DNA of 43,607 nt, taken from assembly GCA_024275485.1 (NCBI GenBank), contig JAJRZA010000084.1, forward strand, positions 1-43,607, written 5' to 3'. Below the pieces are notes generated by a model that searched no databases, was not told the DNA's origin, and saw nothing but the letters and a program-made list of their open reading frames with translations. Shown piece after piece: positions 29,713-42,747 of this stretch (positions are counted from its first letter, which is position 1; each line of letters begins with the position of its first letter). The position numbers and the translations under genes were made by a program. The stretch comes from Candidatus Krumholzibacteriota bacterium (GTDB lineage Bacteria; Krumholzibacteriota; Krumholzibacteriia; LZORAL124-64-63).

Positions 29713-30639
29713 ATGTTCGCCAGATCATTGTCCCGCTCCATCTTGTGCATTTGCTCATTGCTCCTCTTCCCTACCTTTGGATCTGCTCTGACCGAACGCC
29801 CAGAGCCCAAAGTACACGGCGTATTTGACGGCGATGAGATGTACACCTTGTTGCCCCCCGATGCCATCCCGGCCATCACCTCCCCGGAATATGTCACCGG
29901 CGATGAAGCCGCCGCCCAGATGATGCCCGAGGAGCCCATCATCGGCGTTGCCACTGGTGATGACGCCGTCTGCTGGTCTGCGTGGCAACTGGACCACCAC
30001 GAAATTGTCGACGATCATATTGGCGATACTCCCATCGCGGCCACCTGGTGACCTCTTTGCCATACGGCCGTGGTTCACGTCCGCAAAATTGAAGACCAAA
30101 CTTTTACCTTTATTGTTTCGGGAAAACTGTGGCGCAACAGCTTGGTGATGCAGGACAAGGAAACCGGCTCCCTGTGGAGTCATATCACCGGGATTTGTCT
30201 GGAGGGTGAACACAAGGGTGACGAGTTGAAGCAAATACCCTCGGTGCAAACCAGCTGGGCCCAATGGCACGCCGACCATCCGAAGACACGGGTTTTGAAA
30301 AAATCCGAAGAGATCAAATCGTCCCAATATCAGGGTTACTTTGATGACCCCGACAAGGCAGGACTTTTTCGTACATTCTGGCTGGAGGATCGGATGCCGG
30401 GGAAGGCTATTGTTCACGGCATTACTCTCGGGCCCCATGCCTTGGCCGTAACTGATGATGCCTTGAACACCGGTGAAAAATTGCGCCACGATCTGGGAGG
30501 CGTAGAGCTGATCATCACCCGCGGTGCCGATGGTGGAGTGCGTGCGGTGCGTGTTGACAACGACCAGGAAATTCAGGTGCTTGATGCCTTTTGGTTTGCC
30601 TGGAGTGCATTCTATCCCAACACGGCAGTCCTTGAATAA
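29713..30639 (+). CDS. DUF3179-family protein, candidate selenoprotein (TGA 30049-30051 read as Sec)
   Basis: 308 residues if TGA at codon 113 is read through. AAAGGA lies five bases before ATG 29713; the signal peptide is at about 1-25. The first 112 codons match the N-terminal half of DUF3179 (HHEIVDDHIGDTPIAATW). After the TGA the same frame continues without a gap as PLCHTAVVHVRK, then TFTFIVSGKLWRNSLVM and KETGSLWSHITG, all family signatures. In the family this place reads VTYCPLC, so the TGA replaces the first Cys and gives UPLC, a UxxC redox pair. A hairpin with a GTT loop starts a few bases downstream (30056-30087). TGA serves as normal stop elsewhere in the window, so a changed code is unlikely. 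DUF3179 has no established function; a periplasmic thiol/selenol redox role is inference. A nonsense mutation is the alternative. Confidence 0.75.
30056..30087 (+). other. SECIS-like hairpin after the in-frame TGA
   Basis: Stem CGG-C-CGTG / CACG-T-CCG (30065-30072 with 30076-30083, one mismatch) closes a GTT loop at 30073-30075. An outer TTTG/CAAA pairing (30056-30059 with 30084-30087) extends it. The loop G lies 22 bases after the TGA, inside the 16-37-base window known for bacterial SECIS elements, which also need a G at the start of the apical loop. Confidence 0.55.
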
Positions 30640-30713: not shown

Positions 30714-30727
30714 ATGATCCAAATCAA
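30714..30727. promoter_or_regulatory. FNR-type box upstream of napA
   Basis: ATGAT-CCAA-ATCAA matches the FNR consensus TTGAT-N4-ATCAA at 9 of 10 fixed positions. It lies about 175 bases before napA; activation of nitrate reductase by an oxygen-sensing FNR-type regulator is expected for such operons. No good -10 hexamer is seen at the canonical distance, so the start site is unclear. Confidence 0.55.
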
Positions 30728-30900: not shown

Positions 30901-33675
30901 ATGTCTCTTACTCGTCGTGAATTTATCAAAAGGGCCGCTGCGGTGAGCGCGGCTGGTGCCATCGGGATGAAAATTCCCGAATCGGCTCTGGCACAGGTGG
31001 CCCAGATGGAAAGTGGTTGGAAGTGGGACAAAGGTGTTTGCCGCTTTTGTGGAACGGGGTGTGGATTGATGTTGGCCACACGCAACGACAAGATCGTCGC
31101 GGTCAAGGGTGATCCGGCAGCTCCGGTCAACCGTGGCCTGAATTGCATCAAGGGTTATTTCAATGCCAAGATCATGTACGGCAAGGACCGCCTGACGCAA
31201 CCACTTTTGCGGGTCAACAGCCAGGGTGAATTCGACAAGCAGGGTAAGTTTCAGCCGGTGTCCTGGGACAAGGCCTTCGACGTCATGGCCGATAAATTCA
31301 AAGAAGCTTACGGAGAACTGGGCCCCACCGGCATTGGTGTTTTCGGATCAGGTCAGTATACGATCCAGGAAGGCTACGCCATGGTCAAACTGATCAAGGG
31401 TGGTTTCCGCAGCAACAACATCGATCCCAACGCCCGGCACTGCATGGCCAGCGCCGTGGTGGGTTTCATCCAGACTTTCGGTATCGATGAACCTTCCGGC
31501 AATTACGACGATATCGAGTATACCGACACCGCCGTGCTCTGGGGCGCCAACATGGCCGAGATGCATCCCATTCTGTGGTCCCGCATCTCGGACCGCAAGT
31601 TGTCCAATCCGGACAAGGTCAAACTGATCAATCTGACGGTTTACAAGAACCGTTGTTCGAATCTTGCAGATACCGAAATCATCTTCAAACCCCAGACCGA
31701 TCTGGCCATCTGGAATTACATCGCCCATGAGATCGTGCACAACCATCCCGAGGCCATCGACCAGGAATTCGTGGACAAGTACACGGTCTTTGCCACCGGT
31801 AAGGTTGATGTGGGTTACGGCATGCGCAACAACCCTGATCATCCCAAGTATTCGGCCCTGGAACGCGAGACCATGTCCAAACAGGTCTCCAAGGTATTGA
31901 GTGAAGCCGAAGGCAAGACCCTGGCATATCTGGGTTACAAGGCCGGCGATACACTGGTGAACAAGAACGCCGCCGGAGCCGCCAAGCACTGGATCATCGG
32001 CTTCGAGGATTTCAAAACAGGCCTCGAACCCTATACCCTGGATTTTGTGGGCGAATTGGCCAAGGGCGATCCTGACGAACCCCTGGAAGAGTTCAAGGCC
32101 AAGTTGCAAATGCTGGCCGATTTGTATCTCGAAAAAGATCGCAAGGTTGTCAGTTACTGGACCATGGGCATGAATCAGCATACACGCGGTAGCTGGTGCA
32201 ACGAAATGGCTTACAGCGTTCACCTGCTGTTGGGCAAACAGGCTCAGCCTGGCAATGGCGCCTTCAGCTTGACCGGTCAGCCCAGTGCTTGCGGCACTGC
32301 TCGCGAAGTGGGTACGTTTGCTCATCGTTTGCCTGCGGATCTGGTGGTCAAGAACCCGAAACATCGTGCCTTCACGGAAAATCTGTGGAAGTTGCCGGCC
32401 AAAACCCTGAACGGCAAACCGGGCAGTCATTACACCAAGCTTTTGCGCGATATTGAGGACGGAAAAATCAAGTGGGCCTGGGTGCAGGTTTGCAATCCCT
32501 GGCAGAATACCGCCAGTGCCAACCACTGGTTCAAAGCCGCCCGGGAGATGGATAACTTCATCGTTTGTTCGGATGTGTATCCGACCATCTCGGCCAAGGT
32601 TGCCGATCTCATTCTTCCGAGTGCGATGATCTTCGAGAAGTGGGGCGCCTATGGCAATGCCGAGCGTCGCACTCAGCACTGGAAACAATTCGTCACTCCT
32701 GTTGGCGACTCCATGCCCGATATCTGGCAGGCATTCGAGTTTGCCAAGCGTTTCACCCTGAAAGAGGTGTGGGGCGAACAGAAAATCACACCTGAACTGA
32801 CCCTGCCTTCGGTGATGGCCGAAGCACATGCCATGGGTTACAAGGATGACGATACCCTCTTCGATGTGCTCTTCAACAACGAGGAAGCCCACAGTTACCG
32901 ATGGCCCGACCCCATCGGCAAAGATACTCTCAACACCATGGCCGAAGGCGACAAACGCAAGGTCGCCGGTTTTGAGGGTTATGGTTACTTCGTGCACAAA
33001 TACCTGTGGGAAGAGTATCGCAAGTTTGGTGTGGGTCATATGCACGACCTGGCCGAATTCGACGCCTACCACAAGGCGCGCGGCTTGAAGTGGCCCGTAA
33101 TCAACGGCAAGGAAACCGAGTGGCGCTTCAACGCTGAATACGATTCCTATGTCGCCGACAAATCACCGAACAACAAGTACGCCTTCTATGGGCCGGCCCT
33201 GAAGGCCATGCCTGCGGGCAACCTTGAAGGCCCGGTGAAGGGCGACAAGGTCAATTTGGCCAACAAGGCCAAAATCTTCTTCCGGCCCTACATGGATCCT
33301 CCGGAAATGCCCGATGACAAATTCCCTCTGTGGTTGGTGACCGGCCGGGTGCTCGAACACTGGCACACCGGGACCATGACCATGCGCGTTCCCGAGTTGT
33401 ACCGGGCGGTGCCGGATGCCGTCTGCTACATGAATGGTGCCGACGCAAGAAAGATGGGTTTGTCCGGCAGTGACAGTGTCTGGATTGAAAGCCGACGAGG
33501 CAAGGTCAAGGCGCGTTTGGAGTTGCGCGGCCGCAATACCATGCCCAAGGGGATGGTCTTTGTGCCTTTCTTCGATGAACGGGTGTTGATCAACAAGGTC
33601 TGCCTCGACGCCACTTGTCCCATCTCCAAGGAGACGGATTTCAAGAAATGTGCTGTCAAAGTGACCAGGGCATAG
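30901..33675 (+). CDS. napA: Periplasmic nitrate reductase catalytic subunit NapA
   Basis: 924 residues. Reduces nitrate to nitrite in the periplasm with a bis-MGD molybdenum cofactor. A Tat signal opens the protein ([19 protein letters not shown]), so it is exported folded. The 4Fe-4S motif CRFCGTGC with the fourth Cys in GLNCIKGYF follows. The molybdenum ligand Cys is in [13 protein letters not shown] (about residue 181), in the Cys form that distinguishes NapA from Sec-containing formate dehydrogenases. Cofactor-binding motifs recur through the protein ([45 protein letters not shown]). Length is that of the longer NapA type found in Epsilonproteobacteria (about 925). AGAGG precedes ATG 30901. 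It heads the operon napAGHBFD. Confidence 0.97.
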
Positions 33676-33684
33676 CTGGAAACC

Positions 33685-34482
33685 ATGTCGGTCAACATGG
33701 GCACCAATCGGCGAGAATTTTTCTCGACACTGCTGAAAGGCGGGGCTGCCGCTTTGGCCGCAGGCGTGATGTGGGGTGGCTTTGTCCGCGAGGCCAAAGA
33801 CGCTCCCCTGGTACTGCGACCTCCCGGAGCTGTACCCACGGACGATTTCCTGACCAGATGCATTCGTTGTGGATTGTGTGTCGAAGCATGTCCCTACGAT
33901 ACGCTTTCTTTGGCCACACCGGGCTCCGGTGTTCCTTCGGGAACTCCGGAATTCATTCCCCGGGTGGTACCCTGCTATTTGTGCCAGGATATCCCCTGCA
34001 CCGTGGAATGTCCCACCGGTGCCTTGGATGTCGCCCTGGTCAGCAGTGACGGTGGTAGAGTTTTGGATGTCAACCGGGCCCGCATGGGTCTGGCGGTGAT
34101 GGACTACCACAATTGCATCGCCGCCTGGGGGCTGCGTTGTGATGCCTGTTATCGGGCCTGCCCGTTGATCGACAAGGCTATCACTCTGGAATACAGCCGC
34201 AATGAACGCACCGGACGGCACGCCATTTTGCTGCCCAAGGTGCAAACCGATGCCTGCACCGGATGCGGTCTTTGTGAAAGAGCCTGCATTTTGGAAGAGG
34301 CGGCGATCATTGTCTTGCCCCGGGATGTTGCTTTGGGCAAGGTCGGCGACAATTACCTGCGTGGTTGGGACGAAGAAGACCAAAAACGAATTATGGACGC
34401 TGTGCCGCCGGATGAAATCCGGCAGCAGCAAATTGTCGACCCACTCGACTATCTGAATGACGAAGGTTTGGAATATGAATAA
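33685..34482 (+). CDS. napG: Periplasmic ferredoxin-type protein NapG
   Basis: 265 residues. A Tat-like start (TNRREFFSTLLKGGAAALAAG) exports it. Four Cys clusters for 4Fe-4S centres: CIRCGLCVEACP, CYLCQDIPCTVECP, CIAAWGLRCDACYRACP and CTGCGLCERACI. With membrane-bound NapH it forms a quinol dehydrogenase that passes electrons to NapB/NapA. It starts ten bases after napA and overlaps napH by eight. Confidence 0.95.
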   Translation: MSVNMGTNRREFFSTLLKGGAAALAAGVMWGGFVREAKDAPLVLRPPGAVPTDDFLTRCIRCGLCVEACPYDTLSLATPGSGVPSGTPEFIPRVVPCYLCQDIPCTVECPTGALDVALVSSDGGRVLDVNRARMGLAVMDYHNCIAAWGLRCDACYRACPLIDKAITLEYSRNERTGRHAILLPKVQTDACTGCGLCERACILEEAAIIVLPRDVALGKVGDNYLRGWDEEDQKRIMDAVPPDEIRQQQIVDPLDYLNDEGLEYE

Positions 34483-35302
34483 ATCCAAACATCTGCGTTA
34501 CCTGATAGGTCGGCGAGTGGTTCAGGCTGCAGTGATGCTGTTGCTGGTCGGTGGCAACCTCTGGGGCTGGACCGTGCTGCGGGGAAACCTCAGCCAATCC
34601 ATCCTGTTGGGCACGGTGCCCTTGGCCGATCCATTTGCTGTTTTGCAGTTGTTGGCCGCCGGTGGAATGTTGGCGAGCAATGCTTTGCTGGGATCCCTGA
34701 TCACCGTGGTGTTCTATGGATTGCTTGGCGGTCGCACGTTCTGCGCCTGGGTTTGTCCCATGAACCCGGTGACGGATCTGGCCAACCGGCTGGCCCGTCG
34801 CCTGGGTTGGAACAAGGGCCAAAAAGCCCGGATGTTTTCACGAAGTTCACGCTTCGTTGCCTTGATCCTGGCTGTGGTTCTGTCCTTAGTTCTGGGAATT
34901 GCCGCCTTCGAAGCCATCAGCCCCATCGGCATGCTGCACCGCGGATTGGTGTTCGGCATGGGGGCGGGGTGGATGGTGGTGCTGGCTGCTTTCGTGTTCG
35001 ATCTGGCCGTGCAACGCAACGGTTTTTGCGGCCATTTGTGCCCTCTCGGAGCTTTTTATACTGCCATCTCGCCTATGAGCCTGGTGCGCATTCAGCACGA
35101 TCACCATAAATGCACCTCATGCATGGACTGCCTGAAGGTGTGCCCTGAAAATGAAATCCTGGAACTGGTCGGCAAAGCCAGCGGTTCGGTCCTGGATGGA
35201 GTCTGTACCAATTGCGGCCGCTGCATCGAAGTCTGCCACGACGATGCGCTCCGCTTCAATTTTCGCAAAGAAGCCATGTCCCTCGAATCGGGAGGTTCCT
35301 GA
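34475..35302 (+). CDS. napH: Membrane quinol dehydrogenase subunit NapH
   Basis: 275 residues from ATG 34475, which overlaps the end of napG. About four membrane helices (around 18-40, 55-80, 125-145, 165-190) carry the cytoplasmic/loop motifs CAWVCPMN and CGHLCPLGAFY typical of NapH. Two 4Fe-4S motifs end it: CTSCMDCLKVCPEN and CTNCGRCIEVCHDD. It oxidises quinol and feeds NapG. As no napC (tetraheme quinol dehydrogenase) is present here, NapGH is the likely sole electron entry. Confidence 0.95.
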   Translation: MNKSKHLRYLIGRRVVQAAVMLLLVGGNLWGWTVLRGNLSQSILLGTVPLADPFAVLQLLAAGGMLASNALLGSLITVVFYGLLGGRTFCAWVCPMNPVTDLANRLARRLGWNKGQKARMFSRSSRFVALILAVVLSLVLGIAAFEAISPIGMLHRGLVFGMGAGWMVVLAAFVFDLAVQRNGFCGHLCPLGAFYTAISPMSLVRIQHDHHKCTSCMDCLKVCPENEILELVGKASGSVLDGVCTNCGRCIEVCHDDALRFNFRKEAMSLESGGS

Positions 35303-35874
35303 TGTTAATCCGGATGTTGAAGACGAACAAAGTGATCCTGGTGGGAATGCTGATCCTGCTGGTGTTAGTGGTGGGCTGTTCCACGCAAAAGGCTGCCGTG
35401 AATCAGGACGCCCCTGCAGTGGCTCCCGTGTTGGTGACCGATGACGAACTGAGTTATCGGAACCAACCGCTGATGGATCCTTCGGATACACCAAAGCCAA
35501 CTTTTGATGCCGCCGACCCCGGTGATTCGGAATTGCTGGCCCGTGCTTTCGAAAATTCGCCCCCGCTGATACCCCACAACACCGATGACCTGTTGCCTAT
35601 CAGCATCGGGGATAATCAGTGCCTCGATTGCCATCTGCCTGAAAATGCGGAGGATTCAGGTGCCACCGCGACCCCGGCCAGCCACCTTTACGATATGCGG
35701 CGTGGCCGGCAGTTGTCCGATCTGAACCCGGCCAACTTCAACTGCACCCAATGCCACGCCACCCAGGCCGAGGTGGCGCCACTGGTGGCCAATACTTTCG
35801 AACCCTACTTCAGGACCGAAGACGGGGCATCCCAGTCCAATCTGCTGGATATCCTGAACGAAGGGGTCGAGTAG
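35302..35874 (+). CDS. napB: Diheme cytochrome NapB, predicted lipoprotein
   Basis: 190 residues from ATG 35302 (TGATG overlap with napH stop; GGGAGG six bases upstream). Two heme-binding motifs, CLDCH and CTQCH, with the family context SHLYDMRRGRQLSDLNPANFNCTQCHATQ, identify NapB, the electron donor to NapA. Unusually, the N-terminus ends in a lipobox (LVVGC, Cys at about 26), so the cytochrome would be membrane-anchored, while NapB is usually a soluble periplasmic protein. Confidence 0.93.
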   Translation: MLIRMLKTNKVILVGMLILLVLVVGCSTQKAAVNQDAPAVAPVLVTDDELSYRNQPLMDPSDTPKPTFDAADPGDSELLARAFENSPPLIPHNTDDLLPISIGDNQCLDCHLPENAEDSGATATPASHLYDMRRGRQLSDLNPANFNCTQCHATQAEVAPLVANTFEPYFRTEDGASQSNLLDILNEGVE

Positions 35875-35877
35875 ACG

Positions 35878-36210
35878 GTGGCTTTCAACAGTTCGCGCCG
35901 GGATTTTCTGACCCGGCTCCTCAAACCGGTCACCGAAGCGGCCGCGCAGGCGGAAATTTGTTCGCCTGAATTGCCGGCCGGCGTCAATATCATCCTCAAG
36001 GTGGATCTTTGCCTCGCCTGGGGCCGTGGCATCTGCAACAGTTGTGAACGCGTTTGCCCCGAAAACGCCCTTCTCTTTGTGGGCATGATGAACCCGCGCA
36101 TCATCGATTCGCGCTGCACCTGGTGCAATTTATGTGTCCCTGTTTGTCCGGTGGACGCCATCGAGGTGCGACCCGAAGCCATCCCTGAATTGGAAGTGGA
36201 AGAATCATGA
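35878..36210 (+). CDS. napF: Ferredoxin-type protein NapF
   Basis: 110 residues from GTG 35878, three bases after napB. The start SSRRDFLTRLL resembles the twin-arginine-like NapF N-terminus. Two Cys groups are seen: an atypical CLAWGRGICNSCERVCP and the regular CTWCNLCVPVCP. NapF is usually cytoplasmic, with four clusters in larger forms, and is linked to maturation of NapA. This one is short and carries about two clusters. It overlaps napD by ATGA. Confidence 0.8.
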   Translation: MAFNSSRRDFLTRLLKPVTEAAAQAEICSPELPAGVNIILKVDLCLAWGRGICNSCERVCPENALLFVGMMNPRIIDSRCTWCNLCVPVCPVDAIEVRPEAIPELEVEES

Positions 36211-36470
36211 ATATTTCGAGCGTTGTGGTGAAAACCCTCCCTGAGCATCTTGAGGAAGTGAAAACCGCCCTGGAAGAAAGCGGTCTTTGTGAGGTTCATT
36301 TTAATGACGACCAGGGTCGCATTGTGGCGGTGATTGAGGGAGACGATGACGCCGACGAGTCGGATAAGTTGAAGTTGATTGCCGAGTTACCCAATGTTGT
36401 CTCGGCGGGTTTCTCCTGCACATATATTGATCCCCAGGATGAGGGATTGCAGGAATTGGATGGTCGGTAG
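36207..36470 (+). CDS. napD: NapA-specific chaperone NapD
   Basis: 87 residues. NapD binds the Tat signal of NapA and delays export until the cofactor is inserted. The typical pattern is present: ISSVVVKTLPEHLEEVKTAL, an acidic turn, then GRIVAVIEGDD and IAELPNVVSAGFSCTYID. It is the last gene of the operon, coupled to napF. Confidence 0.9.
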   Translation: MNISSVVVKTLPEHLEEVKTALEESGLCEVHFNDDQGRIVAVIEGDDDADESDKLKLIAELPNVVSAGFSCTYIDPQDEGLQELDGR

Positions 36471-40825: not shown

Positions 40826-41084
40826 GCCTCCGGGGGATTGCTAAAAAGGACGGTGAAACAACAATCTAACTGAAAATGGGATTCATTGCCATAGGGCTTC
40901 TTAAAATTGAGAACTCGAAATCCTTGGATCGGCAGTTCACCAGCAAAAATCCCCTCCTGAATTTGCACAATTTACCTTTATAGGATATCTTTCATCTTGA
41001 TTAAACCCATTTTCCAGCCTGGAAACATTTTCAGTAGAACAACCGATATGCTAGGATTTGGGGGTGCACAAATGTCAGTGAAAC

Positions 41085-41100
41085 TGGTGCTATGCTTGCA
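41085..41100 (+). promoter_or_regulatory. Possible sigma-54 promoter for hpd
   Basis: TGGTGCTATGCTTGCA has exact GG-to-GC spacing and a perfect TTGCA; the -24 part has TGG and C6 but deviates at C4, A5 and G7. The start site would be near 41111, leaving only about 11 bases of leader with the ribosome binding site GAGGAA. Confidence 0.4.
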
Positions 41101-41121
41101 ACTTTTTCCGAGGAATAAAAG

Positions 41122-42204
41122 ATGGCAGACCTCTTCGAAAACCCAATGGGTTTGTGCGGATTCGAGTTTGTAGAGTTCACGGCCCCTGAACGGGGTATCC
41201 TGGAACCGGTATTCAAAACCCTGGGTTTCGCTCACATTGGCCGCCACCGATCCAAGGATGTCGATCTCTGGCGTCAGGGCGGCATCAACATGATCATCAA
41301 TTACGAACCCGGTTCTGCAGCAGCCTACTTTGCCGCCGAGCATGGCCCTTCGGCCTGTGGCATGGCCTTTCGGGTGAAGGATTCGGCCAAGGCGTATGCC
41401 CATGCACTCAAACAAGGTGCGCAACCGGTGGTCCAGGAACCAGGCATGATGGAATTGCGCTTGCCTGCCATTCGTGGCATCGGCGGCTCAACCGTCTATC
41501 TGATAGATCGTTTTGAGGACGGCAACTCTATCTACGACATCGATTTCGAGTACCTTGAAGGGGTGGATATCCATCCGGCAGGGGCAGGGTTCGACATCAT
41601 CGACCACCTTACCCACAATGTCTACAAGGGCAGGATGAACTACTGGGCCGAATACTACGAAAAGATTTTCAATTTTCGCGAAATTCGCTTCTTCGACATC
41701 AAAGGCGAATATACGGGGTTGCTGTCCAGGGCTTTGACTGCCCCCGACGGCCTGATTCGTATACCCCTGAACGAGGAAAAGGGCGACCAGATCGGACAGA
41801 TCGAAGAATACCTGCGCGAATACAAGGGTGAAGGCATTCAACACGTCGCTTTCATCTGTGACGATTTGATCTCCTGCTGGCAGAATTTGAAGGACCTCGG
41901 TGTGCCGTTTCTGACCGCACCTCCGGAAACCTACTATGAAATGCTTGAAGAGCGTTTGCCGGGTCATGGTGAACCCACAGGGGAGTTGCAAAAACGCGGG
42001 ATCCTGCTGGACGGCTCCAGCGAGGATGGCCATGCGCGCCTTTTGTTGCAGATTTTCTCTCAGAAAATGATCGGCCCGATCTTTTTTGAGTTCATCCAGC
42101 GCAAGGGTGACGAGGGCTTTGGCGAGGGCAACTTCAAGGCCCTGTTCAAATCGATGGAACGTGACCAGATACGCCGTGGCGTTATCGAAACCGAAGAAAG
42201 CTAG
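41122..42204 (+). CDS. hpd: 4-hydroxyphenylpyruvate dioxygenase
   Basis: 360 residues, the normal bacterial length. Converts 4-hydroxyphenylpyruvate to homogentisate in tyrosine catabolism using Fe(II) and O2. Two VOC repeats; the iron ligands are His162 in DHLTHNV, His241 in GIQHVAF and Glu323 in [10 protein letters not shown], matching H161/H240/E322 of the Pseudomonas enzyme. The C-terminal motif [11 protein letters not shown] is intact. GAGGAA precedes ATG 41122. The next gene, nine bases on, encodes a VOC protein. No homogentisate dioxygenase or fumarylacetoacetase is in the window, so homogentisate may go on elsewhere or serve as a quinone or pigment precursor. Confidence 0.95.
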
Positions 42205-42213
42205 GGGCCCACC

Positions 42214-42747
42214 ATGGCTGTTGAATTGCAACGCATTCACCACGTAGCCTACCGCTGCCGCGATGCCAAGGAAACGGTGGAGTTTTACCAGCGGGTCTTG
42301 AAAATGGACTTCGTGCTGTCCATCGCCGAAGACCAGGTGCCATCCACCAAGGAACCCGATCCGTATATGCACGTTTTCATGGATGCGGGCGGGGGAAATA
42401 TCCTGGCCTTTTTCGAGTTGCCCAATTCGCCCGAGATGGGCCGCGACGAGAACACCCCCATCTGGGTGCAGCATATCGCTTTTGAAGTGAAGGACATGGA
42501 GACGCTGTTGGAGGCCAAGGAATTGGCGGAAGCCGAGGGTTTGGATGTGTTGGGGCCCACCAATCACGGCATTTTCAAGTCCATTTATTTCTTTGACCCC
42601 AACGGCCACCGACTCGAACTGGTCGCCAACACCCGTACTCCAGAGCAGATGGCGGAGCTGCACAAGGTGGCGCCGAAAATGCTGGATGAGTGGAGCCGGA
42701 CCAAGAAGGCTCCGCGCCATGCGGCCTGGTTACACGAATTGGACTGA
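42214..42747 (+). CDS. VOC-superfamily (glyoxalase-like) protein
   Basis: 177 residues. One complete VOC fold: IHHVAYRCRDAKETVEFYQRVL, ILAFFELP, WVQHIAFEVKDM and the closing FFDPNGHRLELVA. Likely metal ligands are His in IHHVAY, Glu in FFELP, His in VQHIAF and Glu in RLELV, so it may be a metal-dependent dioxygenase, lyase or isomerase. It is co-transcribed with hpd, suggesting a role in aromatic or tyrosine-derived metabolism. Reaction unknown. Confidence 0.85.
   Translation: MAVELQRIHHVAYRCRDAKETVEFYQRVLKMDFVLSIAEDQVPSTKEPDPYMHVFMDAGGGNILAFFELPNSPEMGRDENTPIWVQHIAFEVKDMETLLEAKELAEAEGLDVLGPTNHGIFKSIYFFDPNGHRLELVANTRTPEQMAELHKVAPKMLDEWSRTKKAPRHAAWLHELD

Follow-up and report, generated by a model that had tools for sequence, protein, structure and literature searches.

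Here we describe a gene in a 43,607-nucleotide stretch of Candidatus Krumholzibacteriota DNA (hereafter the window) that, with a probability of about 0.95, specifies an exported protein of the DUF3179 family and has an in-frame TGA translated as selenocysteine (Sec). This interpretation, proposed earlier by a sequence-only reading of the window, is strongly supported by the Sec machinery of the host genome, by the same TGA in 36 homologues and by a covarying hairpin that is confined to the TGA-bearing genes; comparison across genomes shows the TGA, the hairpin, the downstream frame and the machinery to be conserved together.

The window derives from a Krumholzibacteriia-type metagenome-assembled genome (a 3.98-Mb draft, 96% complete). 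A check of the frame agreed with the proposal that it is interrupted solely by the TGA: codon 113 is the single internal stop, and there is no frameshift and no further stop (Table 1). Translated through this codon, the product matches PF11376 (DUF3179) in a profile search with 206.3 bits (E = 8.8e-61; Pfam gathering cut-off, 27 bits), the best stretch covering residues 50–287, which bears out the suggested family. The TGA does fall at the first cysteine of the CPLC motif: position 113 lies in the context IAATW-U-PLCHTAVVHVRK. The protein has the conserved PLC-type motif of DUF3179, and near-invariant residues among 41 sequences include P58, G78, E97, D101, P114, L115, R124, S136, G137, D148, W155 and G165. 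The N terminus carries a putative signal peptide, MFARSLSRSILCICSLLLFPTFGSALTERPEP, judged by eye. A second apparent TGA read-through in the window (ORF 40978–42720, minus strand) was taken for a shadow ORF, having no Pfam match and overlapping plus-strand ORFs.

Table 1 Features of the candidate selenoprotein gene and its surroundings (window coordinates).
Feature	Position	Strand	Remarks
Candidate DUF3179 selenoprotein gene	29713..30639	+	308 residues with TGA as Sec; stop TAA at 30637-30639
In-frame TGA, putative Sec 113 at the start of the UPLC (CPLC) motif	30049..30051	+	TGA in 36 homologues
SECIS-like hairpin, CGGCCGTG-GTT-CACGTCCG	30065..30083	+	Conserved, with covariation, among homologues that have the TGA; lacking in the others
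napA-like molybdopterin nitrate reductase gene	30901..33675	+	PF00384, PF01568, PF04879; NapA name from sequence reading and operon context
napG-, napH-, napB-, napF- and napD-like genes, following napA	33685..36470	+	Fer4 families, PF03892 (NapB), PF03927 (NapD)

DUF3179 genes occur in 36 of 80 genomes of the phylum, and the majority of the matches contain one TGA. Aligning the homologues for TGA/Cys pairs, as the earlier reading had suggested, gave at this codon TGA in 36 of 50 genes and cysteine (TGC/TGT) in 4, the remainder encoding serine (5), histidine (4) or asparagine (1), and the TGA-bearing genes span many genera of the class. The window genome itself has three DUF3179 genes, each with exactly one in-frame TGA at the motif; the other two are selenoprotein candidates with hairpins of their own, one with the motif SFUGVCNSG (L002, G000:C26:4115-4681) and one with TYUPLCDAA (L003, G000:C67:27620-28015). 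In a maximum-likelihood tree of 49 genes, read at clade level because its deep branching order lacks resolution, the Sec genes fall into three well-supported clades plus two long-branch sequences: the UPLC clade of the window gene, a UPLA clade, and a clade with UPLC and some UPLV, UPLQ or UPPA members. The serine genes and the histidine genes form clades of their own. In the UPLA clade (L006, L010, L011, L012, L026, L045 and L046) Sec is retained and the second cysteine is alanine; further motifs among Sec homologues are UPLV, UPLQ, UPPA and UPLT. The genes with cysteine, serine, histidine or asparagine at the Sec position (L004, L005, L018, L019, L021–L023, L025, L027, L029, L030 and L047–L049) offer natural comparisons.

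This distribution bears on one alternative, that the TGA is a point-mutation stop or the gene a pseudogene, with two decaying halves. In its favour, standard annotation would give two ORFs (29713–30051 and 30070–30639), but the identical TGA codon stands in 36 genes from many genera, and selection continues past it. Between the window gene and its congener L013, dN is 0.042 and dS 0.682 on the 5′ side of the TGA (dN/dS of about 0.06), and 0.066 and 0.653 on the 3′ side (about 0.10); comparisons over greater distances agree, with dS saturated. To judge from these rates, the part downstream of the TGA is maintained coding sequence under purifying selection. Downstream decay in relatives, which the earlier reading had named as evidence against itself, is thus not seen, and we regard a pseudogene as refuted by the conserved TGA and the downstream constraint.

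All four components of the Sec pathway that the sequence-only reading had proposed looking for are present in the same genome. The selA match scores 449 bits, selB 331 bits (a 640-residue ORF) and selD 366 bits, each above its curated cut-off; internal TGA codons are absent from selA and selB, and selD has one. The latter gene (L066, G000:C1:20138-21055) is itself a selenoprotein gene, with the TGA at the usual Sec site (AGUAAK). A tRNA-Sec scores 69.5 bits (gathering score, 47) and is also called by ARAGORN, with the anticodon TCA (UCA in RNA). The selB and tRNA-Sec models have matches in all 45 related genomes, and above the curated cut-off in 42 of the 45 for each; as the weaker matches are mostly other translation factors or serine tRNAs, it is the number above the cut-off that matters.

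The hairpin occupies precisely the proposed position, starting at the 14th base past the TGA, with the G that leads its loop at the 22nd. Bases 30065–30071 pair with 30077–30083, the window gene having a single C/T mismatch. Folded singly, this sequence is not unusual relative to shuffled sequence (z of about 0 to −0.5), and the hairpin was therefore judged by comparison across genes. Across 35 genes with the TGA, pairing in the seven-pair stem amounts to 94.3%, compared with 25–55% when the partner strand is slid by one to three columns, and both sides change at five of the seven pairs (for example, C–G to U–A in 14 genes at one pair), although these counts are taken over related sequences and are hence of non-independent events. 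None of 500 shuffles reached the observed covariation score, and RNAalifold recovers the same stem unprompted. The same columns in 12 non-TGA genes are 36.9% paired, which is chance level and below their own shuffled mean. Such a difference between genes that share a protein motif seems hard to explain by coding constraint. The stem alignment omits the third paralogue, L002 (motif UGVC), which has its own 6-bp stem at a similar distance (GGGGTC-GGTCT-GACCCC). In the SECIS of Escherichia coli fdhF, an in-frame stem–loop just 3′ of the UGA presents a G-led loop about 21 nucleotides from it; the window hairpin shares this placement, loop and spacing. Unlike known bacterial SECIS elements, it has no primary-sequence match to the Rfam SECIS models, which found nothing in the genome or the loci, but a control search did not find that family anywhere either, so that this negative carries no information.

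We propose that the hairpin acts as a bacterial SECIS, recruiting SelB with Sec-tRNA(UCA), and infer that the ribosome consequently inserts Sec at the TGA rather than stopping. Sec113 would then be the reactive residue, nucleophilic or redox, of a periplasmic enzyme; our best guess at its chemistry is a selenol-based redox or nucleophilic reaction. Alternatively, the TGA could be a regulated stop, or be read by a near-cognate tRNA, yielding mainly a 112-residue product with Sec as no part of the biological one. Such a stop would accord with a case built on sequence comparison rather than on observed translation, but covariation restricted to TGA genes, at SECIS distance and alongside a full Sec machinery, argues for specific Sec insertion, and we hold the regulated stop to be highly unlikely, slightly more so than the pseudogene.

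A sequencing or assembly error at position 30049 has in its favour that the window comes from a draft assembly. It is contradicted by the covarying hairpin that accompanies the TGA and by the same TGA in independently assembled genomes, including a public contig of Candidatus Krumholzibacteriia bacterium (L070, JAUUYW010000012.1), although the figures for L070 are identical to those for L013, so that the two are likely one genome (as are, probably, L069 and L008) and were not counted as independent; the independent assemblies in practice refute such an error. Genome-wide reassignment of TGA, which the earlier reading had called unlikely, can be practically dismissed, although several genes have TGA in frame. 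In the window it is the ordinary stop of several neighbours, such as the napH-like and napF-like genes, and is soon followed by a further stop codon or a new gene; selA and selB lack internal TGA; and a dedicated Sec system exists.

The first DUF3179 selenoprotein was reportedly described by Zhang and Gladyshev in 2007, in a deltaproteobacterial symbiont of Olavius algarvensis. The family is tabulated with the motif UxxC/T among prokaryotic selenoproteins (PMC9312934, PMC13188914), and the passages concerned cite Zhang and Gladyshev 2007 for it. The gene is therefore less novel than the earlier reading, which knew of no characterised DUF3179 selenoprotein, had supposed, and the claim to discovery shrinks to that of an added member. 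The window gene resembles the tabulated selenoprotein in Pfam family and in having Sec first in UxxC, and differs in belonging to Krumholzibacteriota and lying beside nap genes, the Olavius member being compared by description only. Among its relatives in the phylum are forms with UxxA, UxxV or UxxQ, which fall outside the published motif. In the same class, DUF3179 proteins without Sec share the domain and motif position, but have neither the TGA nor a hairpin at the SECIS position and occupy separate branches of the tree. A literature search for a link between Krumholzibacteriota and selenoproteins returned nothing beyond one passing co-mention. What appears to be new here, as read from the genes, is the membership of Krumholzibacteriota, three Sec paralogues in one genome and a putative SECIS supported by covariation, together with predicted Sec subfamilies that have alanine, valine or glutamine for the second cysteine.

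An AlphaFold2 model of the protein is confident and mostly β (pLDDT 90, pTM 0.87) and spans the Sec site; residues 1–28 are disordered, which fits a signal peptide. A sequence search of the PDB yielded no relative, and a fold search of the PDB with the model gave none at E ≤ 0.001 (best TM-score near 0.2 or lower), nor any known redox fold such as thioredoxin. Matches in BFVD, a library of viral folds, are to two klosneuvirus-like proteins, both uncharacterised (Indivirus ILV1, E = 3.3e-9; Hokovirus HKV1, E = 2.2e-4); these give no functional hint, and giant viruses may also have the modelled fold. The redox role suggested earlier for a UxxC protein stands only in part: the window gene does have UPLC, but the second cysteine expected of a thiol–disulfide oxidoreductase is not conserved across Sec homologues, being alanine, valine, glutamine or threonine in some. 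Because some Sec homologues lack it and non-Sec homologues have serine, histidine or asparagine, a simple CxxC-type pair is disfavoured as the common mechanism, and the motif hints only weakly at redox chemistry. Speculatively, and with the odds against it, DUF3179 could be an enzyme family whose Sec works singly, as a nucleophile or metal ligand, and not as one half of a redox pair; cysteine, serine, histidine or asparagine could take its place, and the fold would be one without a solved relative, with Krumholzibacteriota keeping Sec in at least three lineages and no observed reversion to cysteine within them.

The proposed link to nitrate respiration fares similarly. The nap genes do lie downstream, but the napA-like gene begins 261 bases beyond the DUF3179 gene and the linkage recurs in one congener only; beyond its genus the window gene has no conserved gene neighbourhood, and L003 shares its own with one congener. 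A functional tie is thus only weakly suggested. An FNR-like box, ATGATCCAAATCAA, lies upstream of napA at 30714–30727, with a similar one, carrying one more change, in a congener; the window has no more matches of this kind than chance would give.

Standard annotation halves this gene and drops its putative active residue, and does likewise to most DUF3179 genes in the phylum. With 42 of the 45 genomes examined above the cut-off for each marker, Krumholzibacteriota appear to be Sec users, and the 36 Sec genes, the covariation-supported SECIS and the Sec and non-Sec paralogues would together provide a clean basis for the annotation of DUF3179 and for functional tests.
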